Of a DNA stretch of 64,000 nucleotides, positions 11,772 to 51,443 are shown piece after piece. The position numbers were made by a program, and so were the translations under genes. The DNA is from Candidatus Aminicenantota bacterium (GTDB lineage: Bacteria > Acidobacteriota > Aminicenantia > Aminicenantales > Saccharicenantaceae). The notes beneath the pieces were generated by a model. The model saw only the letters and a program-made list of their open reading frames with translations. It made no database searches and had not been told where the DNA came from. The stretch spans positions 1 through 64,000 of the forward strand of contig JAPKZD010000010.1 of assembly GCA_026393975.1 (NCBI GenBank), given 5' to 3'. Within the stretch, counting starts at the first letter, position 1. Every line of letters begins with the position of its first letter.

Positions 11772-13071
11772 CTGTCTCCGCCTGATCTGGTATGTGGCAG
11801 GTACGTTGACCATGGCAGGCGGTGGTGAGAGAGTAATCATGGAAGGCCTCCGGCAATTTGAGGCTAAAGGTCTGGAGGCCACTCTTCTGTTACATACGGC
11901 GATGCAAAATCAGGCTCCGCTATTTGATGGCACTTACTCGCCTAAAGTGTCTAGCGTGAGCAGCTATGAAGCTGGTGATTCGGGGAAGAGATCGCCTTTC
12001 TGGCTGAAAGCGACTCAGCGATTCCGTAAAGCTCAAAGCCTCGTCGCGGCAATATTGTCGCTAAATCCCGATATTATTATTGTTAATGATCCAGAATCAT
12101 GCAGGGTATTGTGGCTTTCCAGTTTGCTTATGCTACGAAAGCCGCCCACCTTTGTGACATTTGTACACGGAAGCCCTTTCCAATTCGTTGATGACCTGAC
12201 CAAGTACTCTCTGATTTTTCGACGCCACTTTGCTGATATCAGAAAGGGCGATTCTGTTTATCGGGAGGTGATTCCGACTGAACTGCCTCCTATTACGCTG
12301 CCCAAACGGATAAGCTTGGAGATTAACTGCTTCTTGAAATACCTAGCATTGCGACATAGCCGATACATATTTGTAATCTCTCAAAAAAACCGACGGGAGG
12401 TCGAGCTACTATATAACTACAGCAATGTTATCGTAATCTCAGCGGGTGGATTCTCCAGCTCTGATTTTACATATCAGCGCCGAAAAGACATGAAAGTAGC
12501 AGTTGGGATCAGAAAGCGGTATGTCATCTTATCGATTTGTCGGTTAGTCTCCAAGAAACGTGTAGACCTTTCAGTTCGTGCGTTTGCAGAATTGATCCGA
12601 AATGGCCAACGTGATGATTGTGTAATGGTGATAGCAGGCGCCGGACCTCATGAGTCAACACTGAGGTCTCTCGCCATCGAGCTACAAATTGAGAACAAAG
12701 TAGAATTCGTCGGTTATGTTCCAGAAGAGCAATTGAGAGATTGGTACTGCAGCTGTGACGTCTTCGTCAGTGCCGACAATGCAGATCATGATCTGTCAGT
12801 GTATATGGCTTTGGCTTTAGGCTGTAAAGTTGTAGTCTCTACCCAGTATGACATTCCAGAGTTCTTAGATAAAGTACGGCGCTTCATCTTCGTGGCCGAG
12901 CCTTCAATACAGGGCTTTGCGCAGACCATGGAGAAGGCAATTCGCATGACTCCTGTCCCACTGAATGCTGCTGATTTCGGTGAGTTGGACAATATGACAT
13001 GGGAGCGATATTTTCAAACCATATTGTCTCTCGCAGAAAAACTTCTTTGTGCTAACAAAGTGACCAATTGA
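11755..13071 (+). CDS. Glycosyltransferase family 4
   Basis: A 438-residue GT-B retaining glycosyltransferase. The N-terminal domain has AGGGERVIMEGLRQF (~20-34) and FVHGSP (~137-142); the C-terminal nucleotide-sugar domain has SICRLVSKKRVDLSVRAF (~260-277), AGAGPHESTLRSLA and EFVGYVPEEQLRDWY. The usual E-x7-E region is altered: HDLSVYMALALGCKVV stands where EGFGxPxxEAMACG is normal, so the first Glu is not evident. The start is TTG 11755 or GTG 11761, both inside the preceding gene. It acts on the cytoplasmic face of the membrane, adding one sugar to the lipid-linked repeat; donor unknown. Confidence 0.78.
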   Translation: MPVPYDCLRLIWYVAGTLTMAGGGERVIMEGLRQFEAKGLEATLLLHTAMQNQAPLFDGTYSPKVSSVSSYEAGDSGKRSPFWLKATQRFRKAQSLVAAILSLNPDIIIVNDPESCRVLWLSSLLMLRKPPTFVTFVHGSPFQFVDDLTKYSLIFRRHFADIRKGDSVYREVIPTELPPITLPKRISLEINCFLKYLALRHSRYIFVISQKNRREVELLYNYSNVIVISAGGFSSSDFTYQRRKDMKVAVGIRKRYVILSICRLVSKKRVDLSVRAFAELIRNGQRDDCVMVIAGAGPHESTLRSLAIELQIENKVEFVGYVPEEQLRDWYCSCDVFVSADNADHDLSVYMALALGCKVVVSTQYDIPEFLDKVRRFIFVAEPSIQGFAQTMEKAIRMTPVPLNAADFGELDNMTWERYFQTILSLAEKLLCANKVTN

Positions 13072-14588
13072 CATTGATGTTTGTTCATCTTCGGCGATTA
13101 TCAGCGCAAACATTAATTTACGGGTTGGGCGAGGTAGCAACGCGCCTGGCTGCGCTACTTCTACTTCCAGTCTATACTCGCATTCTAACTCCGGCGGATT
13201 ATGGCAAACTCGCAATTGTCGCCCTGGTTACAACCGTCGTGGCGATCATCCTGAATTCCGGGCAGAGCTCGGCGTTTTTTCGGTTCTACTTTCAAAATGA
13301 AAGTCAAAATACTCGGCGTAAGCTCACCGGCACAGTGCTCATCTTTCTGCTTGTATCCGCTACTGCAATTTTATTGCCTTTAATATTGTTCTTTGGTCCT
13401 CTAGCAGCTCCACTTTTTAAGGATGTGACCCTCCTGCCGCTGATCAAGATTGCTTTGATCGGCACGTTCTTTGATGTCGGTTCAGTGATCCCTTTCGCCA
13501 CTTTCCGGGCCGAACAACGCGCCGCACGATACGCTAAGTTGTCTGTCTTGCGTTTCTTTATCAATGTCACCCTGAACATCATTGCCGTCGTGGTGTTACG
13601 ACAGGGTGTGATTGGCGTGATCTACGCCAACCTGCTCACCTCCATACTGTTTTTTATGGTCTGTCTGGGACTGACGTTGCGCACCATGGAATGGACAGTT
13701 GACTTAAGCTTATTGAAGCAACTCCTGCGCTTTGGTTTACCGATTGTTCCCGCCAATCTTGCCGGGTGGGCCTTGGCTCTGTCCGACCGGTTTTTTCTGC
13801 AAAGATATTCCGGTCTCGGTCAAGTGGGCATCTATGCAGTGGGCTATTCGATGGCAGGCATCTTGAGTATGTTAACAGGCTGGTTCAACACTGCGTATGC
13901 GCCGTACGTTTATTCTATTTCTAAGCAGTCGGATGCCAAGGTCGTTTATGCACGCGTGCTGACCTACGCGATTACCTTATTCACGCTGGTAGGGTTGGGC
14001 TTGGCTCTTTTTGCTCGCGAGGCCCTGGTTCTGTTGACTAGACCAGCCTATTATGGAGCAGCCAGAATCGTGCCCCTGATCGTGCTCGCGTATCTCTTCT
14101 TTGAAGTGAGTTATCTTATCTCGTTTGGACTTGACCTGACGGGTAAGACCGGGTACTATCCGTTCATCGTCGGCGCGGGCGCTGTTGTCAACTTGTTCCT
14201 TAACCTTGCCTTGATCCCGCCTTTTGGGATGATGGGCGCGGCTGTAGCTACCGTCCTATCCTATATGTTGCTGCCGATCATCGGGTACTTCATCGTCCGG
14301 CGGCTGTATCCGGTGCCCTACGAATGGAGACGATTGCTCAAGCTGGCGTTGGTTAGTGTAGGTGTCTATTTGGCAGGCGTCGTATTGAAAACAGGTAAAC
14401 TCTGGATTGATCTGGGCATGGAAATCATGCTCGTCCTGACTTGGGGTCTGGCGCTATATGGTTGGCGATTCTTCACTCAAAGTGAGCTTGTGACAGCTCG
14501 GTCTACAACGAGCAAAGGCCTACATATTTGCCAAGTACGTCTACGGTGTGGCGTCTCTAAGGTACGGCGAGTAATTGGTAGGTGGTAG
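13068..14588 (+). CDS. wzx: Wzx-type polysaccharide flippase
   Basis: A ~506-residue polytopic membrane protein of the MATE/MOP superfamily with about 12-14 hydrophobic helices. It begins SAQTLIYGLGEVATRLAALL, then VYTRILTPADYGKLAIV, a standard Wzx/RfbX opening, and FGLPIVPANLAGWALALSDR mid-protein. It would flip the undecaprenyl-linked repeat unit to the periplasm. Translation begins at TTG 13068 (overlapping the GT stop) or ATG 13077. The last ~30 residues, after FFTQSELVTAR, are basic, lack family character and run into an IS3 scrap, so the original C-terminus may have been replaced without loss of the transport core. Confidence 0.85.
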   Translation: MTLMFVHLRRLSAQTLIYGLGEVATRLAALLLLPVYTRILTPADYGKLAIVALVTTVVAIILNSGQSSAFFRFYFQNESQNTRRKLTGTVLIFLLVSATAILLPLILFFGPLAAPLFKDVTLLPLIKIALIGTFFDVGSVIPFATFRAEQRAARYAKLSVLRFFINVTLNIIAVVVLRQGVIGVIYANLLTSILFFMVCLGLTLRTMEWTVDLSLLKQLLRFGLPIVPANLAGWALALSDRFFLQRYSGLGQVGIYAVGYSMAGILSMLTGWFNTAYAPYVYSISKQSDAKVVYARVLTYAITLFTLVGLGLALFAREALVLLTRPAYYGAARIVPLIVLAYLFFEVSYLISFGLDLTGKTGYYPFIVGAGAVVNLFLNLALIPPFGMMGAAVATVLSYMLLPIIGYFIVRRLYPVPYEWRRLLKLALVSVGVYLAGVVLKTGKLWIDLGMEIMLVLTWGLALYGWRFFTQSELVTARSTTSKGLHICQVRLRCGVSKVRRVIGRW

Positions 14589-21688: not shown

Positions 21689-22921
21689 ATGCAAAAACAG
21701 CCCAGGATCAGTGTCCTGATCTTGAGCTCTATGTTTCCCAGACCGCAAAATCCGGTATATGGTATCTTTGTCCAAGAGCAACTTGAAAAGCTGTGCTCTC
21801 TGTGCGACATCAGGGCGGTCATTTCGCCTGTTCCCTATGTGCCGCCTCTTCGTGTCTTCGGACGGCGCTACGTATTTTCTCAGATACCCAAGCAACAATC
21901 ATGGCTCAACAGGGTTGTTTATCATCCACGCTACCCTGCAATCCCCAAGATCTTTCGATGGTTAGATGGTTATTCTTACTTTATTCGGATTGTATCGCTA
22001 GTCCGCTCTCTTCAGAAAGTAAGAGATTTTGACATTTTGCATGCACATCAGGCCTTTCCTGATGGTTACGCCGCAATTCTTTTGGGCAAGCTATTCAATA
22101 AACCTGTTGTCACTACCGTCCATGGTGACGACATTAATATGCTGTGCCAGCGGCGAGTGCTCCGGCCGATGATAGCTTTTGGATTGACCCGGGCTAAGAA
22201 AGTGATCGCGGTAAGCCAGGCATTAAGACAGAAAGTCATAGATCTTGGTGTTAAGCCGGATAGAATTATTTGCATTCCAAATGCGGCTAATCACTCTATA
22301 TTTTATTTGGCAGATAAAGGAACGGCACGCGAATCGCAATGCATTCCCGTACATAGGGCAGTTGTTCTGTTTGTTGGAAACTTGGTTTTTGAGAAAGGAG
22401 TCCAGCATCTTCTAAAGGCCGTCGAGCTTCTTCAGAAAGGCGGCCGGGATGTGTTACTGATTGTCGTAGGGGATGGAACATACCGCCCTCAACTCGAAGG
22501 TCAAACGCATGACTATGGAGTGCAGGACTCGGTGCAGTTTGTAGGTTGGAAGGAACGCAAGGATGTCGCTCGTCTTATGGCAGCATGTGATGTTCTGTGT
22601 TTGCCAAGCTACAGAGAGGGGTTGCCGCTTGTAGTCACTGAGGCATTTGCGTGCGGAAGACCAGTGGTCGCGACAAACGTTGGTGGAACACCAGAAATTG
22701 TTGGGCCGGAAAGGGGATTTATGGTTCCACCAGGTGACTCAGTGTCTCTTGCGGACGCATTAGCACGAGCTCTGGATCGGACATGGAATAGCAAGGCAAT
22801 TCATAACTGGGCAGAGCAACATACGCTAGGACACGAAGCCCAAGAGATTGCGAATTTATATGAGAGCGTGTGGCGAGAGATATCGGCGGGGCGTTTAACA
22901 AGGGACAGAATAGATGGCTAG
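21689..22921 (+). CDS. Glycosyltransferase family 4
   Basis: A 410-residue GT4 enzyme. N-terminal domain: LILSSMFPRPQNPVYGIFVQ; acceptor side: HAHQAFPDGYAAILLG and VTTVHGDDINM. C-terminal domain: VGNLVFEKGVQHLLKAVELL, VGDGTYRPQLEGQ, and the E-x7-E motif in REGLPLVVTEAFACGRPVVA (~307-326). It resembles transferases of EPS clusters that add mannose, glucose or galactose; donor unknown. Its stop overlaps the polymerase start by eight bases, so the two are coupled. Confidence 0.84.
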   Translation: MQKQPRISVLILSSMFPRPQNPVYGIFVQEQLEKLCSLCDIRAVISPVPYVPPLRVFGRRYVFSQIPKQQSWLNRVVYHPRYPAIPKIFRWLDGYSYFIRIVSLVRSLQKVRDFDILHAHQAFPDGYAAILLGKLFNKPVVTTVHGDDINMLCQRRVLRPMIAFGLTRAKKVIAVSQALRQKVIDLGVKPDRIICIPNAANHSIFYLADKGTARESQCIPVHRAVVLFVGNLVFEKGVQHLLKAVELLQKGGRDVLLIVVGDGTYRPQLEGQTHDYGVQDSVQFVGWKERKDVARLMAACDVLCLPSYREGLPLVVTEAFACGRPVVATNVGGTPEIVGPERGFMVPPGDSVSLADALARALDRTWNSKAIHNWAEQHTLGHEAQEIANLYESVWREISAGRLTRDRIDG

Positions 22922-24383
22922 TAACAGATCCATAGACTTAGATCGAAGACAGTTCGTGGGGCTTTTTAGCGTTACCCTTACTATTGGTCTGCTAGTAGGA
23001 GTGATTGTCAGCATGGGCTCTGATCTAGTAAAGGTAGCCGTTGCGATATGCGCCGGTATATTATTCTTTATTCTCGCTTTTTTAAAGCCTAAAGGAGTGC
23101 TGTTGATCATTGGCTTTATTATCCCATTAGAGAAGTTCGGAGCTCTTGGAGTTGGGCCTATTGAGTACATTACGGTTGCCAAAGCACTTGGTCTATTATT
23201 GTTTACTAGTGTCGTGGTTCGAAGTCTTGTCCGCCGCAGACCGATCATCACCAAAATGAACTCGCTCGATTGCTTAGTAATCATCTACATTATAGGCGCT
23301 GTGATTCCCTCGCTTTTCAGGTTGTTTCTGAACGATTCATACACAACGAACATATTAGTTCTCACAGTGGCAATATCTTATATATCCCTTCTAGCGTTTT
23401 ATCTGGTTGTTAGATCGCTATGCGACGCTCAGCTTTTGGATAAGCTGTGGCGCGCGGTGTTATTTGGTTTTTTGTTGTCGACAGCAATTTCACTGACGCC
23501 TCTTGGCATGGAGGTAATTAACGGGGTAGCGTTCAGGGCGTCAGGTGGATTCCTAGAAGAAAACAATGCGGGTCTGAACGGTCTGATTGCGTTGGCGATT
23601 GCGATCTGGCTAGCATTCACCAGCAGGAGTAAGAAAGGACAACTGTTTGGTATTCTTTCAGTGGGAGCGAGTCTGATGCTGGTTGTCCGATCTTTCTCCC
23701 GAGGAGCGGCTGTTGGCTTGGCGGTATTGCTCATTCTGTTCCCAGTTATTCTCTGGAAAGAACACAAGCGCCTTGCTTTGTCTAAGAAAAGAATATACTG
23801 GAGGGCAATCCTACTCATATCGTTGTCTGTTTTGATTGTGCTCGGTAGTATGCTGATTACCGACATGTCTCCATACCGCTATTGGGAGCGACTTGCCACT
23901 ATTGCCAACGTGAATAAGGATGCTTCCATTGACTCAAGATTGGCAGCGTGGAAAATCGGCTTGCAGCTGTTTCAGCAATCGCCTGTGTTTGGTACGGGCA
24001 TAGGTAGTATTCCTGTATTCAGCGTTGATATGCTGCCCTCTCGCCTGGTCAATCTTGGAGTAATCGCAATCGGATCTCATAATACTTATATATCTATCCT
24101 GGCTGAGAGCGGTCTTGTTGGGTTTCTACCGTTCGTTGCGATGTTGGTCCTATGTTTCAAGGCTTTTCTTTCATCGGGCGGAAGTCCCAGATCGATAAAA
24201 AGGGCCCTATTTGTTGGGCTCGGAGCTTTCTTGGTCGGAGCGGTGTTTTTGGATTCTCGCACAGAAAAGCTGTTCTATTTGCTAATTGCTTCGGCAGGCG
24301 TGATCGTCAGTTTTGCTGACAAAGCGTTGTCCGACAGAAATATTGGATTTAAAAAATTAAAAATAGTCAGAAACTCTCGATGA
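22914..24383 (+). CDS. wzy: O-antigen polymerase/ligase-like membrane protein (Wzy candidate)
   Basis: A 489-residue integral membrane protein with roughly 11-12 helices. The Wzy_C/O-antigen ligase signature is seen in SRGAAVGLAVLLIL (~262-275), FGTGIGSIPV (~360-369) and GSHNTYISILAESGLVGFLP (~387-406), where the periplasmic His-Asn pair is diagnostic of the family. In a Wzx/Wzy locus this would polymerise repeat units on undecaprenyl diphosphate at the periplasmic face. A second protein of the same fold lies at 46414, so one may polymerise and the other ligate or act on a different chain. Confidence 0.8.
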   Translation: MASNRSIDLDRRQFVGLFSVTLTIGLLVGVIVSMGSDLVKVAVAICAGILFFILAFLKPKGVLLIIGFIIPLEKFGALGVGPIEYITVAKALGLLLFTSVVVRSLVRRRPIITKMNSLDCLVIIYIIGAVIPSLFRLFLNDSYTTNILVLTVAISYISLLAFYLVVRSLCDAQLLDKLWRAVLFGFLLSTAISLTPLGMEVINGVAFRASGGFLEENNAGLNGLIALAIAIWLAFTSRSKKGQLFGILSVGASLMLVVRSFSRGAAVGLAVLLILFPVILWKEHKRLALSKKRIYWRAILLISLSVLIVLGSMLITDMSPYRYWERLATIANVNKDASIDSRLAAWKIGLQLFQQSPVFGTGIGSIPVFSVDMLPSRLVNLGVIAIGSHNTYISILAESGLVGFLPFVAMLVLCFKAFLSSGGSPRSIKRALFVGLGAFLVGAVFLDSRTEKLFYLLIASAGVIVSFADKALSDRNIGFKKLKIVRNSR

Positions 24384-35974: not shown

Positions 35975-36190
35975 GCTCCTCTGCGCTCCGATGCGGAGAT
36001 TGTTGGCAAAGGAGTTAGGCTTTTCGGCCTCGGGCTTCCAGGCTTTAGGGGAACATTGGGCAAGCGCACCGAAGATATGGTTGTTGACGGGCATAGGATA
36101 CAAGACGAAATCGGGTTTAGACCGAAATATGATTTTATCTCTGGATGGAAAGTGCTTATAGAGGAAATGTACGTAAGGGGAGATTTCTAA
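35975..36190 (+). pseudogene. 3' end of a WbpV/NAD-epimerase-like gene
   Basis: In the frame ending at 36188-36190 the sequence reads LGKRTEDMVVDGHRIQDEIG then RPKYDFISGWKVLIEEM, resembling the C-terminus of WbpV-type epimerases (LVVDxSRIRxELGWxPxY...GW), which make UDP-QuiNAc and regularly precede wbpL. The rest of the gene is missing; homology begins about 36010 and the left side is repeat-associated sequence. It is likely the stump of the native gene that was displaced. Confidence 0.55.
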
Positions 36191-36192
36191 GA

Positions 36193-37230
36193 GTGCTGGC
36201 CATTAGTCTTGCCGTTGCATTCGGCGCGCTTGGCATATCGACGCTGTGCGTCGCGGGAGCACGATGCTGGGCTGTCGAACGAATGCTCGATATCCCGAAC
36301 GCCCGAAGTTCTCATACTCAGCCAACTCCCCGGGGAGGAGGGCTAGGCATTGTTATCGGCGTTTTTATCGGTGCCGGGAGCTTATTTATTTTCCGAATCC
36401 TAAGCATGCCGTTTAGGGAGATCGCGGCTATAAGCTTGGGGGGGGGGATCGTTGCATTAGTCGGGTGGCTTGATGATATTCATCGGCTGCCGTATTCAAT
36501 ACGCTTGGTCGTCCAAGGGATAAGTTCGGCGATTATCTTAGTTGCGATCGGTTATTTTCATACAATAACAGTCCCTTTCGTTGGTGATATTCATCTGTAT
36601 TCGATAGGTATCCCGTTCGCGCTTGTATGGATAGTGGGCTTAACCAACGCTTATAATTTCATGGATGGAATTGATGGGATTGCGGGTGGGCAAGCGCTAA
36701 TCGCAGGATTAGGATGGGTAATTATTGGCTTTATGAGCGGCCAATCGTTCGTTGGCCTAATTGGATTGCTCTTAGCCGCGTCCAGCCTAGGTTTTCTATT
36801 CCACAACTGGCCTCCTGCTCGAATTTTTATGGGGGATGTGGGAAGTGCATTTATTGGATTTACCCTGGCGGTTCTCCCCATAATTGGAGGCCAGAGGGAT
36901 CCGCGCTTCATGATCGCAGGAATTCTATTGGTTTGGCCGTTTGTTTTTGATACTTCTTTCACGTTGGCTCGCCGCATGATTAGAAAAGAGAACATTTTCG
37001 AAGCTCATCGGTCCCACATATATCAGCGGCTCGTCATTGCAGGATACAACCATCGTTTTGTAACGCTTATCTATATGGGATTGGCCTTAATAGGGACCTT
37101 CATCGCTTTGCTATGGTATAAAAGAGCGCCTTTTGTTAATGTAGCTGTAATTGTGCTCCCAATCCTGCTCTTCGTTGGGTTGTGGCGATTTGCCATCAGA
37201 GCCGAATCACGCGCACATTCAGGAGCGTAG
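36193..37230 (+). CDS. wbpL: WbpL-type polyprenyl-phosphate HexNAc-1-P transferase
   Basis: A 345-residue integral membrane enzyme of the MraY/WecA/WbpL superfamily, the likely initiating transferase of this polysaccharide. Visible signatures: NARSSHTQPTPRGGGLGIV (~35-53), LGWLDD-like VGWLDDIHRL (~90-99), NAYNFMDGIDGIAGGQ (~151-166), FMGDVGSAFIG (~211-221) and HRSHIYQRL (~272-280). GTG 36193 is the best start: it follows AAGGGGAG at ~36176 and directly precedes the first helix; ATG 36145 lies inside the wbpV stump. A run of ten G (36438-36447) is in the coding region and could slip. Codon use marks the return to native sequence. Confidence 0.85.
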   Translation: MLAISLAVAFGALGISTLCVAGARCWAVERMLDIPNARSSHTQPTPRGGGLGIVIGVFIGAGSLFIFRILSMPFREIAAISLGGGIVALVGWLDDIHRLPYSIRLVVQGISSAIILVAIGYFHTITVPFVGDIHLYSIGIPFALVWIVGLTNAYNFMDGIDGIAGGQALIAGLGWVIIGFMSGQSFVGLIGLLLAASSLGFLFHNWPPARIFMGDVGSAFIGFTLAVLPIIGGQRDPRFMIAGILLVWPFVFDTSFTLARRMIRKENIFEAHRSHIYQRLVIAGYNHRFVTLIYMGLALIGTFIALLWYKRAPFVNVAVIVLPILLFVGLWRFAIRAESRAHSGA

Positions 37231-39210: not shown

Positions 39211-40449
39211 ATGCTTGGACGAAGAGTTCTTGCCGCTGCGATAGTCCTGCTCGTAACGGGCTCAGGCATATCATTCGCCGAAACGTGGAAAGGGCTCGAG
39301 CTTGAGAGGAAATGGCACGACGCCGCTTGGAAGTTCGGGCCGTTCCGTATTCAGCCGTCGCTCGTAATTTCGAATGCCGGAGTAGATTCGAACCTCTACT
39401 ATTCGACGAATGAGCCGATCAAGGACTTTACGATAACCGCGGGGCCGGCGGCGACACTTTACGTCCCGATCCACAGGAAATTCGTCCTGTCCCTATACGG
39501 TTCGCCGCAGTATGTCTGGTACTCCAAGACGGACCGGGAGAGGACATGGAATTATTATTTCAGCGGGGCGGCCCAGCTGAGTTTGAAGAATGTCTTCTTC
39601 AGCCTTGAGGGAAACTACTCTGATGCCCGGGAACGTTGGAACACGGAAATAGATATCCGGCCTAGGAGAAAAGAAGAAGGATACGGCGGCTCGGTCCTGG
39701 TCAAGGCCGCTTGGAAGACATCGTTCTCCCTGGGCTACCGGACGGTCAAATACGACTATCAGAGCGTTGTTTATGGGGATAGTTTCGACGTCCGGGAACG
39801 GCTGAACAGGAAGGAGAGCTACGCCAACTTCTCGCTCTTCTACCAGGCATCGACCCAGAGGCGCTTTTTCCTGGACTTCGAATACGGCCTCTATCAATTC
39901 GAGTTTGCCACCCAGGCGGCTATCGGAAATTCGAGAAGTGGTGCCGCATACGCAGGGCTCGAATTTTCGCGGCTTGGGCGCAGGGTGCGAGGGCGCATCC
40001 GTGTCGGTTATAAGAAGTTCGACGTCCGAGCCGTGAACGGGCCCGACTATCAGGGTTTCGTTGGCGATTCTCAGCTTTGGGTCCGACTTGCCAAACCCTT
40101 CGTCATCCGCGGGTCATATGTTCGCGACGTCCGCTTTTCGCTCTGGTACTCGAACCCCTACTACATCGAGAGCCGGCCGGGCGCTGGCGTGTCGCTTTAC
40201 CCGCTGCGGTTCCTGCGCCTTGATTACGATTATTCGCTAGGGAGGAACAGATATCCTGTAGTCGGGGGAGGCGGGCCGGATGTCAAGCGGCTCGATGAAT
40301 ACTCGATTCATTCGGCCGGAATATACTTCCGGATTAAGAAGAGCGTTGCTCTCGGATTCATCGCCAGTTGGTGGACGCGGAAATCGAACCTCGCCGCGGA
40401 AGATGACAAGAGGACCTTTTTTGGGTTAAACTTGACTTACGACTTTTAA
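39211..40449 (+). CDS. Outer-membrane beta-barrel protein of the export cluster
   Basis: A 412-residue protein with a signal peptide (MLGRRVLAAAIVLLVTGSG, cleavage after FAE-like site ~24) and then alternating aromatic/polar strands, for example FVLSLYGSPQYVWYSKTD and GNYSDARERWNTEIDIRPRR, ending with LNLTYDF, a terminal Phe typical for barrel insertion by BamA. It is of the type often called BBP2-like or putative beta-barrel porin in EPS loci. It could guide chain secretion with the Wza protein; not proven. ATG 39211 lies four bases past the capD stop; a longer frame upstream is overlap. Confidence 0.75.
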   Translation: MLGRRVLAAAIVLLVTGSGISFAETWKGLELERKWHDAAWKFGPFRIQPSLVISNAGVDSNLYYSTNEPIKDFTITAGPAATLYVPIHRKFVLSLYGSPQYVWYSKTDRERTWNYYFSGAAQLSLKNVFFSLEGNYSDARERWNTEIDIRPRRKEEGYGGSVLVKAAWKTSFSLGYRTVKYDYQSVVYGDSFDVRERLNRKESYANFSLFYQASTQRRFFLDFEYGLYQFEFATQAAIGNSRSGAAYAGLEFSRLGRRVRGRIRVGYKKFDVRAVNGPDYQGFVGDSQLWVRLAKPFVIRGSYVRDVRFSLWYSNPYYIESRPGAGVSLYPLRFLRLDYDYSLGRNRYPVVGGGGPDVKRLDEYSIHSAGIYFRIKKSVALGFIASWWTRKSNLAAEDDKRTFFGLNLTYDF

Positions 40450-40470: not shown

Positions 40471-40499
40471 GGGGACACGTACAAAAAGTACATGTCCCC
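40471..40499 (+). repeat. GGGGACA/TGTCCCC hairpin, copy 1
   Basis: Left arm GGGGACACGTAC (40471-40482), loop AAAAA, right arm GTACATGTCCCC (40488-40499); one mismatch in 12 pairs. Same family as 47873-47901, 47924-47952 and 54114-54142. It lies between the barrel gene and wza and may act as an mRNA structure or a RAYT-mobilised REP-like element. Confidence 0.9.
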
Positions 40500-43711: not shown

Positions 43712-44593
43712 ATGATCGATCTGCACACGCACTTGCTCTGGGACTGGGACGACGGGCCGGATGACCGCGTCCAAGCCCTGGAGATGTGCCGGATGGCCGA
43801 GAAGGACGGGACCAAGGCAATCTGCCTCACGCCCCACCTCTTCCGGGCGAACCGGTACGGCGACAACCTGGAATTACTCCGCCAGAGGATGGTCGAGTTC
43901 GACGAGGAGATGCGCACGTCCGGCATCGGCATCGAGTTCCACTGGGGGGCCGAGGTCTACGTCCATGCCGAGGTTGTCCGGGCGGTCGAGAAATTCAGGT
44001 TCACCGTCGACCAGACGAGCTATGTCTTCCTCGAGTTCGCTGCCGACGGCGTGCCGGTCGGAGCGGCCAACATGCTGGCCCAGCTGATGAGCAAGGGCTT
44101 CGTGCCCATCATCAGCCACCCGGAGCGGAATAAGGGGTTCGCCGCCCGGCCCGAGCTCCTCTTCGAGTTCGTTAATATGGGCTGCGCGGCCCAAGTGACG
44201 GCGGCGAGCTTGACCGGTGAGCTGGGGAAGGAGACGCGGACGACGGCCGGTCTGTTCCTGGTCAATAACCTGGTCCACATCATTGCCAGCGACGCCCACC
44301 GGACGATCGGCCGGCCTCCCGGTCTCAGCGGCGCCGTCGAGGCGGCATCGAAGATCGTCGGCGAGAGCAAGGCCCGGGCCATGGTCACCGAGGTGCCGCG
44401 GGCGATCCTCGACAACAAAGCCCTGCCGGACTGGGGCGAGCCGGAGAACCCGCTCCGGCACAAGACTTGGACCCAGCGGCTCCTCGGGATGCCGCGGCGG
44501 TCGACGAGGCCTGCGGGCTGGGGAGGGGGCGGGGGGCAGCGGACCGGTTCCGGCCACACGACCGTCCTGAAAATCAAAAAAAATAGTACTTGA
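43712..44593 (+). CDS. cpsB: CpsB/YwqE-type PHP tyrosine-protein phosphatase
   Basis: A 293-residue PHP-fold metal-dependent phosphatase. IDLHTHLLWDWDDGP (2-16) carries the first metal ligands; TPHLFR (~38), GAEVY, ISHPERN (~133) and IASDAHRT (~192) supply the rest. It dephosphorylates the tyrosine tail of Wzc, its upstream neighbour. A Pro/Gly-rich tail after ~255 is unusual. LLWDWDDGP replaces the common ILPGIDDGP, but the ligand residues are kept. Confidence 0.9.
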   Translation: MIDLHTHLLWDWDDGPDDRVQALEMCRMAEKDGTKAICLTPHLFRANRYGDNLELLRQRMVEFDEEMRTSGIGIEFHWGAEVYVHAEVVRAVEKFRFTVDQTSYVFLEFAADGVPVGAANMLAQLMSKGFVPIISHPERNKGFAARPELLFEFVNMGCAAQVTAASLTGELGKETRTTAGLFLVNNLVHIIASDAHRTIGRPPGLSGAVEAASKIVGESKARAMVTEVPRAILDNKALPDWGEPENPLRHKTWTQRLLGMPRRSTRPAGWGGGGGQRTGSGHTTVLKIKKNST

Positions 44594-44615
44594 CAGACAA
44601 AAAATGGTGTATAAT
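44590..44615 (+). promoter_or_regulatory. Possible sigma-70 promoter for the Cna-B-like triplet
   Basis: TTGACA (44590-44595) and TATAAT (44610-44615) are both perfect hexamers, but the 14-base spacer is shorter than the usual 17. The site lies at the end of cpsB, and AAGGAG (44622-44627) precedes ATG 44636. Separate transcription of the triplet is therefore possible. Confidence 0.4.
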
Positions 44616-44635: not shown

Positions 44636-45172
44636 ATGTTAAAAGTAACTTCATTTCGTTCTAGGAGTCTGGCCGGAGGGTTGATCGCGGCCTTTGTGCT
44701 CCTTTTGATGCCTTTGCCGAGTTTCTCGCAGGAACAGCCTCAGTCTTACGCGAGACAGGGGTCGCTCCAGGGGAACGTTTACTCGGAAGGGATGAGATCG
44801 CGCGTCACGAACGCCGTCGTCAAACTCAGGAACCTCAACAACCAGAAGGAATATACGAGCCAGCCGACCGACGCCAAGGGCGGCTATAAGATCCTGGGGG
44901 TCGAGGAAGGCTGGTACACGCTCGGCGTCAGCACGGCCGCCGGGGACTTCAACCTGAATTACGGCGTCTACGTCAAGGCCGGCGTGGCGGCCAAGCTCTC
45001 CGTCGCGATGCTCCCCGGGGGGATGCTCGAAGGTAAGGGCGGGAACGGAAGCGGGAAAAAGGGCTTTTTCAAGACGCCGGCCGGGATCCTGACCATCGTG
45101 GCCCTCGGGGCCGGAGTAGGGTTCGGCGTTTATGAGCTGACCAAAGAAAAGGAAGCTTCGCCGGTAAGATAG
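44636..45172 (+). CDS. Cna-B-like secreted one-span protein, paralogue 1
   Basis: A 178-residue protein: signal peptide (~10-30), a carboxypeptidase-regulatory/Cna-B-like beta domain (LQGNVYSEGMRSRVTNAVVK ... GWYTLGVSTAAGDFNLNYGV, ~42-120), a Gly/Lys spacer, FFKTPAGILTIVALGAGVGF (hydrophobic helix ~146-165) and the tail KEKEASPVR. The domain shape (NAVVKLRNLNNQKEYTSQPTDAKGGY) is that of small prealbumin-like folds used in surface proteins. Two more paralogues follow. No function is known to me; its place between the export kinase/phosphatase and the ligase suggests a role at the cell envelope. Confidence 0.75.
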   Translation: MLKVTSFRSRSLAGGLIAAFVLLLMPLPSFSQEQPQSYARQGSLQGNVYSEGMRSRVTNAVVKLRNLNNQKEYTSQPTDAKGGYKILGVEEGWYTLGVSTAAGDFNLNYGVYVKAGVAAKLSVAMLPGGMLEGKGGNGSGKKGFFKTPAGILTIVALGAGVGFGVYELTKEKEASPVR

Positions 45173-45184
45173 GGGAGGCCAAAA

Positions 45185-45724
45185 ATGAGAAAATCTCCAA
45201 TTTTTCGTTCCAAAGTCTTGGTTGTGTTTTTGGCTGCGGCGTTCATCCTGCTGACGATTCCCGTCCGGCAATTCGCCGCGGGGGCGCCTAAAGCGAATGG
45301 GGCGCTTTCCGGCTACATCTACGGCGAGGACATGAGGACACCCATCCGCAACGCCGTGGTCAAGCTCCGTAACGTGGCCAGCCAGAAGGAGTACGAGAGC
45401 GAGCCGACTGATCTCGAGGGGATGTACAGGATCCCCGGGATCGAGGAAGGCCGTTATGTGATGGGGGTCATGTCCGTCCAGGGAGACTACAACTTCCATT
45501 ACAGCATCCTCATCAAGTCGGACGCGCTGGCTAAGCTCTCGGTGGCCATGAAGCCCAACAGCGCCCCCGTACGGATCGAGCAAGGGACGAGCGCGAACGA
45601 GAAAAAAAAGGGGGTCATGGAGTTCTTCAAGTCGCCGGCCGGCATCCTGAGCCTGATCACCGTCGTAGAAGCCACGCTTTTCGCCATCGTCCTGAGCGAA
45701 GGTGAAACTTCGCCGATCCGCTAA
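45185..45724 (+). CDS. Cna-B-like secreted one-span protein, paralogue 2
   Basis: A 179-residue protein with the same plan: signal peptide (VFLAAAFILLTIPVRQFAAG), domain LSGYIYGEDMRTPIRNAVVK ... GRYVMGVMSVQGDYNFHYSI, spacer, EFFKSPAGILSLITVVEATL and tail LSEGETSPIR. It starts 12 bases after paralogue 1 with GGGGAGG as ribosome site. A cysteine lipobox is absent; the C-terminal helix keeps most of the protein outside with a very short inside tail, or the opposite if the signal peptide is cleaved late. Confidence 0.75.
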   Translation: MRKSPIFRSKVLVVFLAAAFILLTIPVRQFAAGAPKANGALSGYIYGEDMRTPIRNAVVKLRNVASQKEYESEPTDLEGMYRIPGIEEGRYVMGVMSVQGDYNFHYSILIKSDALAKLSVAMKPNSAPVRIEQGTSANEKKKGVMEFFKSPAGILSLITVVEATLFAIVLSEGETSPIR

Positions 45725-45775
45725 GCTGCATACGATTCCGGGAGCCCGGGAGGCTCAAAAAAGGGGAGGTTTTTT

Positions 45776-46279
45776 ATGAGAAAATCGGTTTCGAAGTCTA
45801 GGTGGATGATCTGGGGAGCGCTGGCGGCGTTCTCGCTCTTTATCGTCCCGGTCGGCGAAGTGGCCTGGGCGAAGGCCGAGGGCGGCTCGCTCGTCGGGTT
45901 CGTCTATGCGCAGGACTTGAAGACGCCCGTAGTCGGCGCCGTCGTCAAGGTCCGGAATATCGCCAACCAGAAGGAATTCGCGAGCGGCACGACCGACGCC
46001 AATGGGATGTACAAGATCGACGGCGTCGATGAAGGCCGGTACATTCTAGGCGTCACGGCGACGCAGGGCGATTTCAACTTCGACTACGTCATGCTCCTCA
46101 AGGGCGGCGAGATGGCCAAGCTGTCGGTCGCCCTGGCACCCGGGGGGCAGACCACGGGCTCAGACGCACCGAAGAAGAGCTTCTTCAAGTCGCCGATAGG
46201 GATCATCACAGTGGTTGTGGTGGCCGGGGCACTTCTCTTCGTTATCTTCCACGAAGGCGAGACCTCACCGATCCGGTAA
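45776..46279 (+). CDS. Cna-B-like secreted one-span protein, paralogue 3
   Basis: A 167-residue paralogue: signal peptide (WMIWGALAAFSLFIVPVGEV), domain LVGFVYAQDLKTPVVGAVVK ... GRYILGVTATQGDFNFDYVM, spacer, SFFKSPIGIITVVVVAGALL and tail FHEGETSPIR. The last ten residues agree closely with paralogue 2, and FFK(T/S)P(A/I)GI is invariant across the three, so the C-terminal helix-plus-tail is under stronger constraint than the spacer. A terminator follows at 46300. Confidence 0.75.
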   Translation: MRKSVSKSRWMIWGALAAFSLFIVPVGEVAWAKAEGGSLVGFVYAQDLKTPVVGAVVKVRNIANQKEFASGTTDANGMYKIDGVDEGRYILGVTATQGDFNFDYVMLLKGGEMAKLSVALAPGGQTTGSDAPKKSFFKSPIGIITVVVVAGALLFVIFHEGETSPIR

Positions 46280-46299
46280 GCCGCAGAACTCGAAGTCAA

Positions 46300-46362
46300 G
46301 AAGGCATTGGGTCTACGAGATGCCAATTTTGGCATAGCGTAGACTCGGTGCCTTCTTTTTTT
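46300..46362 (+). terminator. Strong Rho-independent terminator
   Basis: GAAGGCA (46300-46306) pairs with TGCCTTC (46349-46355), with further internal pairing GTCTACG/CGTAGAC and TGCCAA/TTGGCA, followed by a T8 run (46355-46362). It closes the operon after the third Cna-B-like gene. Confidence 0.85.
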
Positions 46363-46413
46363 GCCCGATTTTTCATATGATACAGGCTTGGGTGAAACGG
46401 GAATGAGCATAAA

Positions 46414-48618
46414 TTGACCAAGCACATCGTCTTCTGGGGGCTTTGCGCGGTCCTCGTCTTCGTCCCCCTGCCTATCGGCTCGGTCGAGGAGTGGGCCGTT
46501 TTCGTCTTCGAAGCGGCGACGATCGGCCTGTTCCTCGTTTACCTGGGCGGGGAGATAGGCAGCCGAAGAAAACGCCTCATGGAGGACGATCCCCTGGCGC
46601 TTGGTCCGGCCTGCCTTCCTCTCGTCTTCAAGATCCTCCTCGCTGTCTTCCTGGCGGTCTCTTTTCTACAAGTCGTGCCGCTTCCCGCATCAATCGTCAA
46701 GATCCTCTCGCCCCGCGCCTACGGAATCACCCTCGGCCTCGTCCGCGACGGACTCGCCGCACCGTCGGGATGGCTGACGCTATCGCTTACGCCGAGCGCC
46801 ACCCTGTCCGAGCTCGTCCTCATCCTCTGCTACGGGATTTTCGGTTTTCTTGTCCTGCGCACGGTCCGCTCCCGGCGCCAGGTCGAGATCTTTGTTCTGG
46901 TCATCGTCGCCTCGGCCCTCTTCCAGGCCCTCTACGGCATGGCCGAAATGTTCAGCGGCCACGAGATGATTTTCGGCCGCGTCAAGCGCTTTGGGGCCGG
47001 CTCGGTCACCGGGACTTACGTCAACCGCAACCACTTCGCCGGCTTCCTGGAGATGGCCTTCCCGCTGAGCCTGGGCTATCTCCTGGTCAAGGCCCGCTAT
47101 TTCGCCATGGAGAAGGGGCTGTCGCTCCGGAGGAGAATCCTCTGGTTCGGCCAGGAAAGCCTTCAGTGGACGCTCCTCCTGGGGCTCGTGCCGGCATTCA
47201 TCGGGGTCGGCCTTGTCTTTTCCAAATCACGTTCCGGCATTATGGTCCTCGTCGTTACGGCCGTCCTCGCTGCCGCGGCGACCGCTTCGTGGCGCGAATT
47301 CTCCGAGGAGGAAGGAGAGGGGTCCGGGCCGGGCACGAAGCGCCGTTTCGGGAGGATCGTCCGCCTCGTCGTCATGGTCGTCCTGGCCGCGGCGGTCTGG
47401 CTCGGCATCGGTCCGGTCATCGATCGGTTTTCCGAGATGGACATTTCCTACGAGGCCCGGCGCCTTTTTTACGAGAACACACTCCACATGATCGGCGATT
47501 TTCCTTTGGCCGGGACGGGCAAGGGGACCTATGTCGATGCCTACGCCATGTATGAGAAAATCGACGACGGCCTGAAGCTTTCGTACGCCCATAACGACTA
47601 CCTGGAGTTCGCGGCCGAGAACGGGATCGTCGCTGGAGGGGCGCTCGCCGCGGCCGGCATCGGATTGGCCGTCTGGCTCGCCGCGATGTGGCGTCGTCGC
47701 CGGAGCTCGTTCGCCAAGGGCATCGGGCTCGGAGCCATGCTGGGCGTCACGGCCATCCTTATCCACGGCTTCACGGACTTCAACCTCCAGATCCCGGCCA
47801 ACGCGGTCTATTTCACGGCGCTGGCCATGTTGGGGGTGGTTGTGCTGGGAAGAGCGGGACGAAACGAACAGGGGGGACACGTACCCGAGGTACATGTCCC
47901 CAAAGAGGCTGGCGGGAAAGAAGGGGGACATGTACCGCAGGTACGTGTCCCCGGAAAAGCGGGGCGCCTCAAGCGGCTCGGCCCGCCGGTCGCGGTCCTC
48001 CTGGCCTTGGGCCTCTTCGTCGCCGCCTTCCACGACTTCCGCGGCTTCCATTACCTGGGGCAATACCGCCGGGCCCGGAGCGAGGCGAGGAGCGTCGAGA
48101 GCGCTTTCCCGCGGCTCGAAGCTCTCCTCGAGAAGGCCGTGAACGCCTCCCCCCTGTCCGAGTTCCGAATAGAGCTGGCCCGGCTCTACACGGAGATGGC
48201 CCGTGTCGCCAACGACGCCGGCCGCGACGAGGAACGCGAAGCTTTCTGCGACCGTGCCGCCTCGGCCTACGAGCGGGCCATCGCCGCGAATCCCGTCCAC
48301 GCCTTCGCCTATTACGAGACGGGGTTCGTCTATCTCCTCTCCAACTATCCGCTGATGACCTACGCCGACCGGGCCAAGACCTACTTCCGCAAGGCCCTCG
48401 AGCTCAAGCCGGCCGACGATAACCTCAACCTGAACGTCATCTTTCTCTATTTTTCCTGGTGGCAGACGCTCGAGAACGCGGAGAAAGTCTACGCGGCAGG
48501 CCTCTACCGCCAGGCCGTCGCTCGCGACCCCGCTTTCGCCGCCAAGCTCGAGGCCCGCTGGAAGCAGAGCTTCAAGACGGCCGACCGCCTCGCCGCCATC
48601 CTGGCCGAGATGCAGTGA
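46414..48618 (+). CDS. O-antigen ligase-family protein with C-terminal TPR region
   Basis: A 734-residue protein. The first ~470 residues hold about 11 membrane helices with the Wzy_C/WaaL signature (RNHFAGFLEMAFPLSLGYLL ~207-226; FSKSRSGIMVLVVT ~268-281; GTGKGTYVD and SYAHNDYLEFAAENG ~389-403). After another helix (~520-540) come TPR-like repeats (~560-730; AYERAIAANPVHAFAYYETG). It may polymerise or ligate the glycan. TTG 46414 is the likely start. Residues ~485-513 (GGHVPEVHVP ... GGHVPQVRVP) are encoded by two GGGGACA hairpins inserted in frame in the loop before the last helix. Confidence 0.85.
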   Translation: MTKHIVFWGLCAVLVFVPLPIGSVEEWAVFVFEAATIGLFLVYLGGEIGSRRKRLMEDDPLALGPACLPLVFKILLAVFLAVSFLQVVPLPASIVKILSPRAYGITLGLVRDGLAAPSGWLTLSLTPSATLSELVLILCYGIFGFLVLRTVRSRRQVEIFVLVIVASALFQALYGMAEMFSGHEMIFGRVKRFGAGSVTGTYVNRNHFAGFLEMAFPLSLGYLLVKARYFAMEKGLSLRRRILWFGQESLQWTLLLGLVPAFIGVGLVFSKSRSGIMVLVVTAVLAAAATASWREFSEEEGEGSGPGTKRRFGRIVRLVVMVVLAAAVWLGIGPVIDRFSEMDISYEARRLFYENTLHMIGDFPLAGTGKGTYVDAYAMYEKIDDGLKLSYAHNDYLEFAAENGIVAGGALAAAGIGLAVWLAAMWRRRRSSFAKGIGLGAMLGVTAILIHGFTDFNLQIPANAVYFTALAMLGVVVLGRAGRNEQGGHVPEVHVPKEAGGKEGGHVPQVRVPGKAGRLKRLGPPVAVLLALGLFVAAFHDFRGFHYLGQYRRARSEARSVESAFPRLEALLEKAVNASPLSEFRIELARLYTEMARVANDAGRDEEREAFCDRAASAYERAIAANPVHAFAYYETGFVYLLSNYPLMTYADRAKTYFRKALELKPADDNLNLNVIFLYFSWWQTLENAEKVYAAGLYRQAVARDPAFAAKLEARWKQSFKTADRLAAILAEMQ
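47873..47901 (+). repeat. GGGGACA/TGTCCCC hairpin, copy 2 (inside a gene)
   Basis: GGGGACACGTACC, loop CGA, GGTACATGTCCCC: 13-bp arms with one mismatch. It lies in frame in the O-antigen-ligase gene and is translated as GGHVPEVHVP. Confidence 0.92.
47924..47952 (+). repeat. GGGGACA/TGTCCCC hairpin, copy 3 (inside a gene)
   Basis: GGGGACATGTACC, loop GCA, GGTACGTGTCCCC. It begins exactly 51 bases after copy 2, so it keeps the same frame and is translated as GGHVPQVRVP. Confidence 0.92.
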
Positions 48619-49352: not shown

Positions 49353-49426
49353 TTTTCGGGTACAGACTCGAAGGCGATCTTTATGTCGCCGAGCCGGAGA
49401 AGGCGCTGTTGGACGAGCTTCAGTAG
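49353..49426 (+). pseudogene. AbiEi antitoxin fragment (duplication scar)
   Basis: Reads FGYRLEGDLYVAEPEKALLD then ELQ stop. It equals the 51251-51443 part of the AbiEi gene with an internal deletion that joins GACGAG to CTTCAGTAG. The stop overlaps the RelE gene end exactly as in the intact copy at 51437, so the left RelE module came with part of its AbiEi neighbour. Confidence 0.88.
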
Positions 49427-49662
49427 CTCTGTTGGCGCGTGTCGGCCGCGACCATGAATACGATCTTTTCCTTGTCATCGACGATATAGAAAAACCGATA
49501 CGATCCGATCCTATATCTCCAGGTTTCGGGTTTGAAACCCTTCAGCTTCTTGATGTTCGTCCCGAAATAGGGTTGCTCGCTGAGTTGGGGATAGACAAGG
49601 CTACTGATTTTCTCGAGGTCGTCTAGGAATTGAACGGTCTCGAAGACCCGGAAATCACTCAA
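49420..49662 (-). CDS. relE: RelE/ParE-family toxin, copy 1
   Basis: An 80-residue toxin: FETVQFLDDLEKISSLVYPQ, GTNIKKLKGFKPETWRYRIG and SYRFFYIVDDKEKIVFMVAA, the standard RelE fold with basic C-terminal residues for RNA contact. It differs from copy 2 (51437-51679) at only a couple of residues (LSEQ/LREQ, VDDK/VNDK). Translation starts inside the antitoxin gene (8-base overlap). Confidence 0.88.
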   Translation of the reverse strand: MSDFRVFETVQFLDDLEKISSLVYPQLSEQPYFGTNIKKLKGFKPETWRYRIGSYRFFYIVDDKEKIVFMVAADTRQQSY

Positions 49663-49897
49663 CGAACCGGCCTTTTCTTTCCTTCGCCTGATTCGTCCCC
49701 GCCTTGATCCTCGCTAGAAGATTTCCGTCGGAGAGGATCCCTTCCGTTTCGAAAGAGTCCGTGAACAGGGTATTCTCGAGTTCCTTCATGGCAAGGGTCT
49801 CAATGGCGTTGGAGATCTTCCGGTTTTCCGTCTGGGCGTATTTCTTGAACGCTTCGTAATGGTCTTCCGAGATGCGCAAAGTGATCGTTTTGGACAT
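49655..49897 (-). CDS. RelB-like antitoxin, copy 1
   Basis: An 80-residue protein starting MSKTITLRISEDHYEAFKKY, a ribbon-helix-helix-like N-terminus that would bind the operator, and an acidic helical C-terminus that would wrap the toxin. I used the ATG at 49897, shared with copy 2, and not the longer frame. Pairs with the RelE gene in one operon. Confidence 0.85.
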   Translation of the reverse strand: MSKTITLRISEDHYEAFKKYAQTENRKISNAIETLAMKELENTLFTDSFETEGILSDGNLLARIKAGTNQAKERKGRFVE

Positions 49898-50148
49898 GAT
49901 GCGTTTATCCTCCAGATGATGCAAATATATTCTAATAGCTTCGCTTATCGCTGTCAAGGCCGGAGTAGGTTGGGCCGGGAGTAGGTTGCTTGGCTGTCGC
50001 AACTATAAGCAATAAAACAAGATCGTCAAAATATCGGCCTCTTTTATTGCCTTAAAGAACTCTTTTTCGCCCAGAAAACACGGCTTTAAGACCGGCTTTT
50101 CGCAATTAAGCAATGCGCAAGGCTTAAGACCCGGTTAATTCTTCACAC
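49898..50148. other. Intergenic region with short repeats
   Basis: No gene. It contains GGAGTAGGTTG twice (49964, 49979), the sequence GGTTGCTTGGCTGTCGCAAC (49985-50004), which recurs in similar form at 53658-53679, and the 28-base repeat copy (50069-50096). These may be pieces of a decayed small element. Confidence 0.5.
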
Positions 50149-50184
50149 TTGACATTATCACATAATTAACATATATGTTAATTA
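50149..50184 (+). promoter_or_regulatory. AbiE promoter with palindromic operator
   Basis: TTGACA (50149-50154), 17-base spacer, TATATG (50172-50177). A perfect 22-base palindrome, TAATTAACATA|TATGTTAATTA (50163-50184), covers the -10 region. AbiEi-type antitoxins repress their operon through inverted repeats, so this is the probable operator. Confidence 0.7.
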
Positions 50185-50199
50185 ACTAGGAATTGCTAG

Positions 50200-50874
50200 A
50201 TGAACCAAAATCTTGCTGAAAGCCTGGCCGAGAGGCTCAAAATCGCTGTCGAACAGGTCGTCAGGGAGGAGTTTGAGCTTTCTCTTCTGAAGAGCCTTTT
50301 CGAATCCGGGATCGGCAAGGCCCTCGTATTCAAGGGCGGGACGGCTCTCCGCATCGCGTTCGGTTCCCCGCGTTTCTCGGATGACCTGGATTTCTACGCA
50401 AGCTTCGCCATCCCCGAGGCGGCTTTCCAGAAGGCCGCCCGGGCGGCTCTGAAAGCCCTGCCCGAGGCAAGCCTCGTAGAAGCGCTGGCCAAGCGCTTCA
50501 CCCTGTTCGCCCTTTACAGGTTCAATGTTCCCTACATCGCGCGTCCCTTCTCAATTAAGGTCGAGGTTTCCACCCGGGAGGAAAGCCGCCGCCAGGCCGA
50601 CGAGTCGGAGCTCCGGCTCCTTTCGAGCGAGGTCACGAATCTCTCGGTCCTCGCCCGGGTCGCGACGCTCGAACGGGCCCTCGAAGACAAGAAGGCCGCC
50701 TTTGCTGCGAGGCGCCAGCCGCGCGACCTATACGACCTGTGGTTCATCTCCCAGAAGCTGGGGCTCCCCTTTAAGGCGGACCTCGCCGGTTTCGACCCGA
50801 GGATCGTCAGGCGGGAGCTCAGGAAATATCTTCCCAAGGCCCACTGGAGCGTCATCGACCAATGGACAGGATAA
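50200..50874 (+). CDS. abiEii: AbiEii/AbiGii-type nucleotidyltransferase toxin
   Basis: A 224-residue nucleotidyltransferase of the type IV toxin family. The active-site block VFKGGTALRIAFGSPRFSDD then LDF (43-65) has the GG and the DxD metal residues, and a lysine/RDLYDLWF segment (~170-180) follows. AbiEii toxins block growth by modifying tRNA or other targets after phage infection. Here the toxin gene precedes the AbiEi gene with a 13-base overlap, the reverse of the classical order. Confidence 0.88.
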   Translation: MNQNLAESLAERLKIAVEQVVREEFELSLLKSLFESGIGKALVFKGGTALRIAFGSPRFSDDLDFYASFAIPEAAFQKAARAALKALPEASLVEALAKRFTLFALYRFNVPYIARPFSIKVEVSTREESRRQADESELRLLSSEVTNLSVLARVATLERALEDKKAAFAARRQPRDLYDLWFISQKLGLPFKADLAGFDPRIVRRELRKYLPKAHWSVIDQWTG

Positions 50875-51443
50875 AGCCGCGGGATATGGACCTCGTCAGA
50901 CAACTGGCCAGGTTCAACAAGCCTTTCTGGTCGGTGGCCGACCTTGAGAAGGTCCTGGGGTACGGGTCCAGGAAGAGCCTCCTCGTCGCGCTCCACAGGC
51001 TGACCGCGTCGGGGATCCTGGAAAGGGTCCGCCGGGGTTATTACCGGGTTTCGACGCGCCCCGCGGACGAGGCCGCCCTGGCCAACGTCCTATACAGGCC
51101 TTCTTATTTGTCTTTCGAGTCGGCCCTGGCACGTCATGGGATCCTGAGCCAGATCCCTTACAGCATGACGTTCGCCACGACCCGGCGGTCCAAGAGGATG
51201 ACGATTGGCGGCCGGGAGGCGGAATTCCGGCAGATCAAGAAGGATCTGTTTTTCGGGTACAGACTCGAAGGCGGTCTTTATGTCGCCGAGCCGGAGAAGG
51301 CGCTGTTGGACGAGCTCTACATGATGAAGAGGGGTAGGACTGCGATTCCGCTCGAGGAGCTGGACGTCGACAGGCTGTCAAAGGGAAGGCTTCGGGAATT
51401 CGCGTCACGCTTCCCGAAAGGAATATTGGCCGAGCTTCAGTAG
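50862..51443 (+). CDS. abiEi: AbiEi-like antitoxin/transcriptional regulator
   Basis: A 193-residue protein with an N-terminal winged helix (KPFWSVADLEKVLGYGSRKS ... ILERVRRGYYRV, ~19-60) and a C-terminal AbiEi domain (LSFESALARHGILSQIPYSM ~84-103; LYVAEPEKALLDELYMMKRG ~138-157). It would repress through the palindrome at 50163 and neutralise AbiEii. A truncated copy of its 3' part lies at 49353-49426. Confidence 0.88.
   Translation: MDRIKPRDMDLVRQLARFNKPFWSVADLEKVLGYGSRKSLLVALHRLTASGILERVRRGYYRVSTRPADEAALANVLYRPSYLSFESALARHGILSQIPYSMTFATTRRSKRMTIGGREAEFRQIKKDLFFGYRLEGGLYVAEPEKALLDELYMMKRGRTAIPLEELDVDRLSKGRLREFASRFPKGILAELQ

Follow-up and report, generated by a model that had tools for sequence, protein, structure and literature searches.

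P1, P2 and P3, three tandem genes in a polysaccharide locus of Candidatus Aminicenantes (phylum Acidobacteriota), are genuine genes and belong to a hitherto undescribed, Acidobacteriota-wide family of small membrane-anchored envelope proteins. The family is probably in partnership with the enzyme encoded downstream of the triplet, a Wzy_C-superfamily protein with a C-terminal TPR part. The fuller reading that we favour, in which P1–P3 are dedicated envelope partners of this enzyme, their C-terminal tail is recognised and the tail Ser/Thr serves as a glycan acceptor, is put forward tentatively as a whole, at somewhat under an even chance.

The triplet and its locus

The window, by which we mean the whole stretch of 64,000 nucleotides analysed, holds the following features.

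13068..14588, plus strand: Wzx-type flippase (PF13440/PF01943)
22914..24383, plus strand: candidate Wzy polymerase, a further Wzy_C protein that stands alone in the sugar-assembly part (PF04932, E 4.1e-20, no TPR)
36145..37230, plus strand: WecA-like initiating HexNAc-1-P transferase (GT4; PF00953, E 3.6e-38)
39211..40449, plus strand: probable outer-membrane beta-barrel and OPX partner, from its place beside OPX and by analogy (PMC9603273, PMC9601211)
40519..41394, plus strand: short Wza-type OPX protein (PF02563 and two SLBB; compare class 3 OPX, PMC9603273)
41408..43708, plus strand: Wzc-type polysaccharide co-polymerase/tyrosine kinase, assigned from sequence and syntenic across loci
43712..44593, plus strand: CpsB/CapC-type PHP phosphatase (PF19567, E 1.4e-47)
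44590..44615, plus strand: promoter-like TTGACA-N14-TATAAT, read directly, 5' of P1 and overlapping the CpsB end
44636..45172, plus strand: P1, 178 aa, ATG start; signal peptide, prealbumin-like domain, FFKTPAGI helix, tail EASPVR
45185..45724, plus strand: P2, 179 aa, ATG start; P1-like architecture, tail ETSPIR
45776..46279, plus strand: P3, 167 aa, ATG start; P1-like architecture, tail ETSPIR; AlphaFold2 mean pLDDT 85.7
46298..46362, plus strand: strong intrinsic terminator (hairpin and U-run) between P3 and the Wzy_C gene
46414..48618, plus strand: Wzy_C protein (O-antigen ligase/O-OTase/Wzy superfamily; PF04932, E 3.6e-19) with C-terminal TPR, proposed functional partner

The first-pass annotation had placed the triplet between the Wzc/CpsB pair and a ligase, and this is the arrangement found, with CpsB before it and the TPR-bearing Wzy_C gene after it. 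It had also credited the triplet with its own terminator and perhaps a promoter, and both suggestions hold up. The region 46280-46372, with the hairpin and U-run, folds at -46.3 kcal/mol (z = -8.2), and the promoter-like element just 5' of P1 is conserved in the genus, with TATAAT kept in all five aligned members and CTTGAC in four of the five. Its spacer of 13-14 nt is atypically short, which is why a generic promoter scan omits it. Going by these two signals, P1–P3 appear to form a transcription unit of their own. Searched against plasmids, the terminator region had no match.

The barrel reading frame was called from 39106, with the likely start at ~39211, and had no Pfam match; no Wza_C match, which would mark the outer-membrane helix domain, was found by Pfam in the OPX protein. 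The two Wzy_C proteins of the window fit a polymerase plus a ligase, and these roles may be split between them, with the TPR-fused protein as the candidate ligase. Initiating transferases of the WecA-like family would make the reducing-end residue of the glycan an acetamido sugar.

The window has several other features of note. A heparinase II/III-like protein (14795-16867) is encoded in the polysaccharide assembly locus, together with four UDP-GlcNAc 2-epimerase-like (MnaA/WecB) frames recognised by eye, one of them truncated (3954-5051, 20984-21442, 30145-31263 and 33732-34823), and a transposase/integrase-like ORF inside this locus (32868-33590, also by eye) suggests a past insertion. Beyond the triplet lies an AbiEi/AbiEii-like pair (50200-51443, within the region 49420-51974), flanked by two near-identical copies of a small minus-strand gene pair (49420-50002 and 51437-51974) that by eye looks RelE-like/antitoxin-like. 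On the minus strand at 54169-60411 is a protein of 2080 aa that looks alpha-2-macroglobulin-like by eye and carries a low-complexity GGVVGGVLGGVV stretch. The palindrome GGGGACAYGTACC-N3-GGTACRTGTCCCC occurs at 40471-40499, 47873-47901, 47924-47952 and 54114-54142, where none is expected in shuffled sequence, and at several other sites in the genome. The Wzy_C-TPR gene contains two of these copies; they are in frame, fall between the part that encodes the membrane region and the TPR part, and add a GGHVPxVxVP-type repeat.

Architecture and fold of the family

As first described, the three paralogues share a signal peptide, one prealbumin-like domain, a helix that starts FFK(S/T)P(A/I)GI and a tail that ends SP(I/V)R, with the reading frames exactly as called then. 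P2 and P3 are 46-47% identical to P1, and the linker between domain and helix is variable. All three N-termini are hydrophobic, and inspection by eye suggests a signal peptidase I site in each. The triplet is old: in a tree of the genus the P1 and P2 orthologues each fall into a supported clade of their own.

Sequence matches of the domain to CarboxypepD_reg, SdrD_B and SpaA were weak to borderline, and PF13620 exceeded its cut-off in P3 alone (32.7 versus 32.3 bits). A search of solved structures by sequence with the family returned nothing significant. AlphaFold2, run for P3 on a 46-sequence alignment, predicted a confident beta-sandwich at residues 37-115, with pLDDT of 86-98 over most of the domain, and a helix at residues 140-159. 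The nearest solved fold to this model is the carboxypeptidase D transthyretin-like domain (VIA-align Z 11.1, rmsd 2.0 over 80 residues); CnaB2, the BcpA pilin and transthyretin were further close matches by Foldseek and VIA-align. Both the model and these matches put P3 in the prealbumin-like (CarboxypepD_reg/transthyretin) fold, a seven-stranded beta-sandwich. Of the earlier label "Cna-B-like" the prealbumin fold stands, but the nearest folds are carboxypeptidase D transthyretin-like domains and the Lys/Glu/Asn isopeptide triad is not visible by eye in the family alignment, which has no conserved first-strand Lys, last-strand Asn/Asp or matching Glu.

A LONG subfamily of ~260-290 aa carries an extra domain, inserted after the prealbumin-like domain and ahead of the helix. 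This domain matches the one found at the C-terminus of U32 peptidases (4he6/4he5, rmsd 1.1-1.2); it alone is interpreted here, since the predicted structure is poor in the helix and tail. A LONG paralogue (G000:C17, L069:8448-9230) lies in a second polysaccharide locus with the order barrel, OPX, Wzc, Wzy_C-TPR, LONG.

The family follows a Wzy_C-TPR enzyme

Searches for the family covered Acidobacteriota, in which many of the genomes are fragmented. Members were found in 46 of 60 related genomes and in 83 of 297 genomes of the phylum at E 1e-5, where some matches are long open frames sharing the domain alone. A scan of genome contigs found a single close relative. Literature searches for such a family in exopolysaccharide loci returned nothing relevant.

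Family genes are encoded with Wzx, Wzy, Wzc and OPX genes, that is, in Wzx/Wzy polysaccharide loci. In the taxonomic order to which the window belongs the family gene usually lies between CpsB and the Wzy_C gene, and in other taxonomic classes it is often directly 5' of the barrel gene or adjoins Wzy_C. An OPX, Wzc, CpsB or Wzy_C gene was found within 6 kb of 39 of the 47 members from that order, and of 35 of the 50 members from elsewhere. The proposed link to polysaccharide export is thus real for most copies, but some lie outside such loci.

Within these loci the closest association is with the enzyme. When presence of the family was set against presence of the downstream Wzy_C homologue, 46 of the 60 relatives had both, none had the family alone, three had the enzyme alone and 11 had neither (Fisher p 1e-9, a nominal value since the relatives are not independent). 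In two of the three enzyme-alone genomes the contig breaks at the expected place; in G057 the contig stops shortly after the TPR gene, and in G056 there is a fragment that bears the tail. The corresponding counts for the Wza-type exporter OPX were 40, 6, 6 and 8 (p 0.0018, likewise nominal), a weaker association. Three OPX/barrel/Wzc loci that lack a Wzy_C-TPR gene (L217, L218 and L219) had no family member and no SP-tailed ORF, and the only Wzy_C in L217 and L219 is TPR-less and lies elsewhere in the region. A tight link to OPX/Wzc as such was accordingly rejected. Co-occurrence with Wzc/CpsB loci or with a specific protease/transferase had been put forward as a test; the family is indeed tied to polysaccharide loci, but most closely to the Wzy_C-plus-TPR "ligase" and not to Wzc/CpsB or Wza. 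Both a Wzy_C core and a TPR partner were present in 42 family loci, and in a further eight Wzy_C was present with no TPR partner detected.

The enzyme itself has the motifs HNDYLEFAAENG (H393) and SRSG (R273), which are usual Wzy_C family residues and by themselves do not separate a ligase from a polymerase. Its TPR matches are weak, up to E 0.1. Neither PglL_A nor Wzy_C_2 was found in it by Pfam, which sets it apart from PglL and PglS; both domains are also absent from TfpO and TfpM (PMC12645811), with which its domain content agrees, but its neighbour is a non-pilin.

A conserved Ser/Thr-Pro tail as candidate acceptor

The tail is an intrinsic and strongly conserved part of the family. It contains SP in 96 of 119 distinct members and TP in a further nine ([ST]P in 105 of 119), and several of the remaining members still hold a Ser at the equivalent place. 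Only four columns are invariant in the alignment of 46 sequences from across the phylum, and the tail Pro is among them; the Ser comes close to this, and in two tail alignments it is the invariant residue. A hydrophobic segment with SP in the last 14 residues was seen in 84 of 103 family ORFs versus 13 of ~2,630 other ORFs, the 13 being mostly spurious reading frames, so the tail is not a product of chance. Typical ends are EEASPSKK, ETSPIR and NNASPSAP-like, acidic, disordered and rich in Ala, Pro and Ser, with the Ser usually fifth from the end. The tail is kept across very divergent members, also where the ectodomain changes, as in the LONG paralogues. It was proposed at first pass that helix and tail are better conserved than the linker, and the invariant Pro and nearly invariant Ser beside a varying linker agree with this.

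On the favoured reading, the Wzx/Wzy locus uses a short OPX and probably a beta-barrel translocon. Sec export would bring the prealbumin-like domain into the periplasm, and the C-terminal helix would hold the P protein in the membrane beside the Wzy_C enzyme. The enzyme, or its TPR part, would recognise the tail, whose Ser/Thr might be a docking or acceptor site to which the enzyme could transfer a lipid-linked glycan, giving a protein-linked or anchored polysaccharide.

Several reports make such a role conceivable. The O-OTases are Wzy_C-superfamily enzymes, and the genes for TfpO, TfpM and PglS often adjoin that of the acceptor, as the present family is adjacent to or co-occurs with a Wzy_C-superfamily enzyme; TfpO and TfpM glycosylate a Ser/Thr at the C-terminus, and for Acinetobacter PglL the target is Ser close to Asp/Glu in disordered stretches rich in Ala and Pro (PMC12645811). 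In AniA a nearby Pro helps glycosylation (PMC3643930). TfpO and PglL favour glycans whose reducing-end sugar is an acetamido one (PMC12645811), as we would expect from the WecA-like transferase of this locus. The sharing of the tail with a few FecR and Big_1 proteins, described below, would suit a portable recognition site. Counting against the proposal are the copies far from Wzy_C, the tailed FecR and Big_1 proteins outside export loci, the non-terminal position of the Ser and the eight loci with no TPR detected. By analogy with these O-OTases, glycosylation of the tail itself is attractive as a specific mechanism but doubtful, and a phylum-wide system in which the Wzy_C-TPR enzyme covalently links Wzy-made polysaccharide to the Ser/Thr-Pro tail of small carrier proteins seems to us unlikely at present.

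Topology of the tail and a possible scaffold role

Proteins with a signal peptide and a C-terminal helix normally adopt the N-out/C-in layout, which would make the tail cytosolic and inaccessible to a periplasmic ligase, whereas the acceptor idea depends on a periplasmic tail. The main rival explanation builds on this layout. P1–P3 could be type I inner-membrane proteins that act as a scaffold, with the prealbumin-like domain holding Wzc, OPX and Wzy_C together or binding the nascent polymer, and with the [ST]P tail contacting Wzc, CpsB or another cytosolic partner. The conserved place of the gene between CpsB and Wzy_C, or directly 5' of the barrel gene in the other classes, would suit such a role, and the fold resembles domains frequent in carbohydrate-related proteins, for example rhamnogalacturonan lyase and the SusC N-terminal extension.

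The charges flanking the helix point the other way for most members outside the window's class, where they are more positive before the helix than after it in 51 members versus 6. In the window's own class the bias is weak (33 versus 23). As a topology predictor, flank charge would thus speak against a cytosolic tail outside the window's class and only weakly within it. A scaffold for the exporter is also at odds with the Wza/Wzc/barrel loci that have no family member and with the association of the family with Wzy_C rather than OPX. We regard the scaffold as a serious possibility, and lean against it on balance.

The tail beyond the family

The tail had originally been suggested to be a recognition or anchoring signal, and a profile of the C-terminal tail was run across genomes. 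The tail is present in the homologues, is real and conserved, and is retained when the ectodomain changes; what did not stand is a general sorting signal. Among the 60 relatives strong matches to the tail-only profile were confined to the family, and in 119 genomes of the phylum nearly all of its matches were family members. The exceptions were one FecR protein (L169) and two Big_1 proteins (L172 and L182), with ectodomains unrelated to the family. A survey showed that the tail is rare among FecR proteins, most of which lack it. Neither a dedicated protease for the tail nor a matching sortase or exosortase was found.

FecR and Big_1 proteins with a closely similar helix-plus-tail end, e.g. KEDEEASPSRP, were seen in other Acidobacteriota at L228:9499-10638, L229:8295-9305 and L230:9346-10371. 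No polysaccharide export genes were found near the tailed FecR and Big_1 proteins.

These few proteins are the best argument for a second alternative, in which the tail is a CTERM-like anchoring or sorting module, shared among several envelope proteins and acted on by some processing enzyme, with the polysaccharide link secondary. In known sorting signals the motif precedes the helix and the end is basic, whereas the motif of this family follows the helix. With the tail so nearly confined to the family and used only rarely elsewhere, a module of this kind is improbable.

Copies outside polysaccharide loci

Copies far from any Wzy_C gene occur at L040, L045, L046, L053, L060, L132-L134, L140 and L144. 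Among the non-polysaccharide copies (L132, L133, L140, L134 and L137), three pairs adjoin a response regulator, with GGDEF in the one that was scanned, and at least two of these pairs also adjoin an M42 peptidase. Two further copies (G159) lie beside histidine-kinase-like genes, and some orphan copies are near nothing recognisable. That the family has a structural role in the envelope or at the surface, as an S-layer-like or adhesive protein, and merely hitch-hikes in polysaccharide loci could be argued from the orphan copies beside GGDEF regulators or histidine kinases, from a weak similarity to the Kustd1514 S-layer glycoprotein and from prealbumin-like adhesin domains, but the small single-domain size, the strongly conserved tail and the strict co-occurrence with Wzy_C make this very improbable.

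Implications and comparison with known systems

A family that tracks one Wzy_C-TPR subtype is either a new protein acceptor or an overlooked obligate subunit of the enzyme. Either would assign a function to Acidobacteriota genes that now match just generic "carboxypeptidase regulatory-like" models, and both touch on two open problems, namely how Gram-negative bacteria retain exported polysaccharides at the surface, and how polymerases, ligases and protein glycosyltransferases are told apart in the Wzy_C superfamily. If the acceptor reading is true, the product would be a protein-anchored capsule or exopolysaccharide.

With PEP-CTERM, GlyGly-CTERM and LPXTG proteins the family shares a tripartite-looking C-terminus of motif, helix and short tail, but its most conserved motif comes after the helix and its tail is acidic instead of basic. 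The likeness to Cna-B, SpaA and CarboxypepD_reg proteins lies in the fold; the family differs in having, by eye, no isopeptide triad, in its single domain, in its Gram-negative envelope and in its helix and [ST]P tail.

The locus resembles the class 3 (short) OPX systems that export through an 18-stranded beta-barrel (EpsY-EpsX, WzaX-WzpX) in pairing a short OPX with a probable beta-barrel and in having a Wzc-type co-polymerase, but no prealbumin-like helix-and-tail component is named for those systems in the searched passages of the two reports (PMC9601211, PMC9603273). The family also tracks the Wzy_C-TPR gene and not the translocon.

Compared with TfpO, TfpM, PglS and PglL, the candidate acceptor here is no pilin but combines a prealbumin-like domain with a C-terminal helix, with the Ser usually fifth from the end, and the enzyme has TPR and lacks PglL_A and Wzy_C_2. 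What the systems have in common is a gene for a Wzy_C-superfamily enzyme next to that of a small protein, exported by Sec and anchored in the membrane, with a candidate Ser/Thr acceptor near its C-terminus, in an acidic tail rich in Ala and Pro (PMC12645811, PMC3643930).
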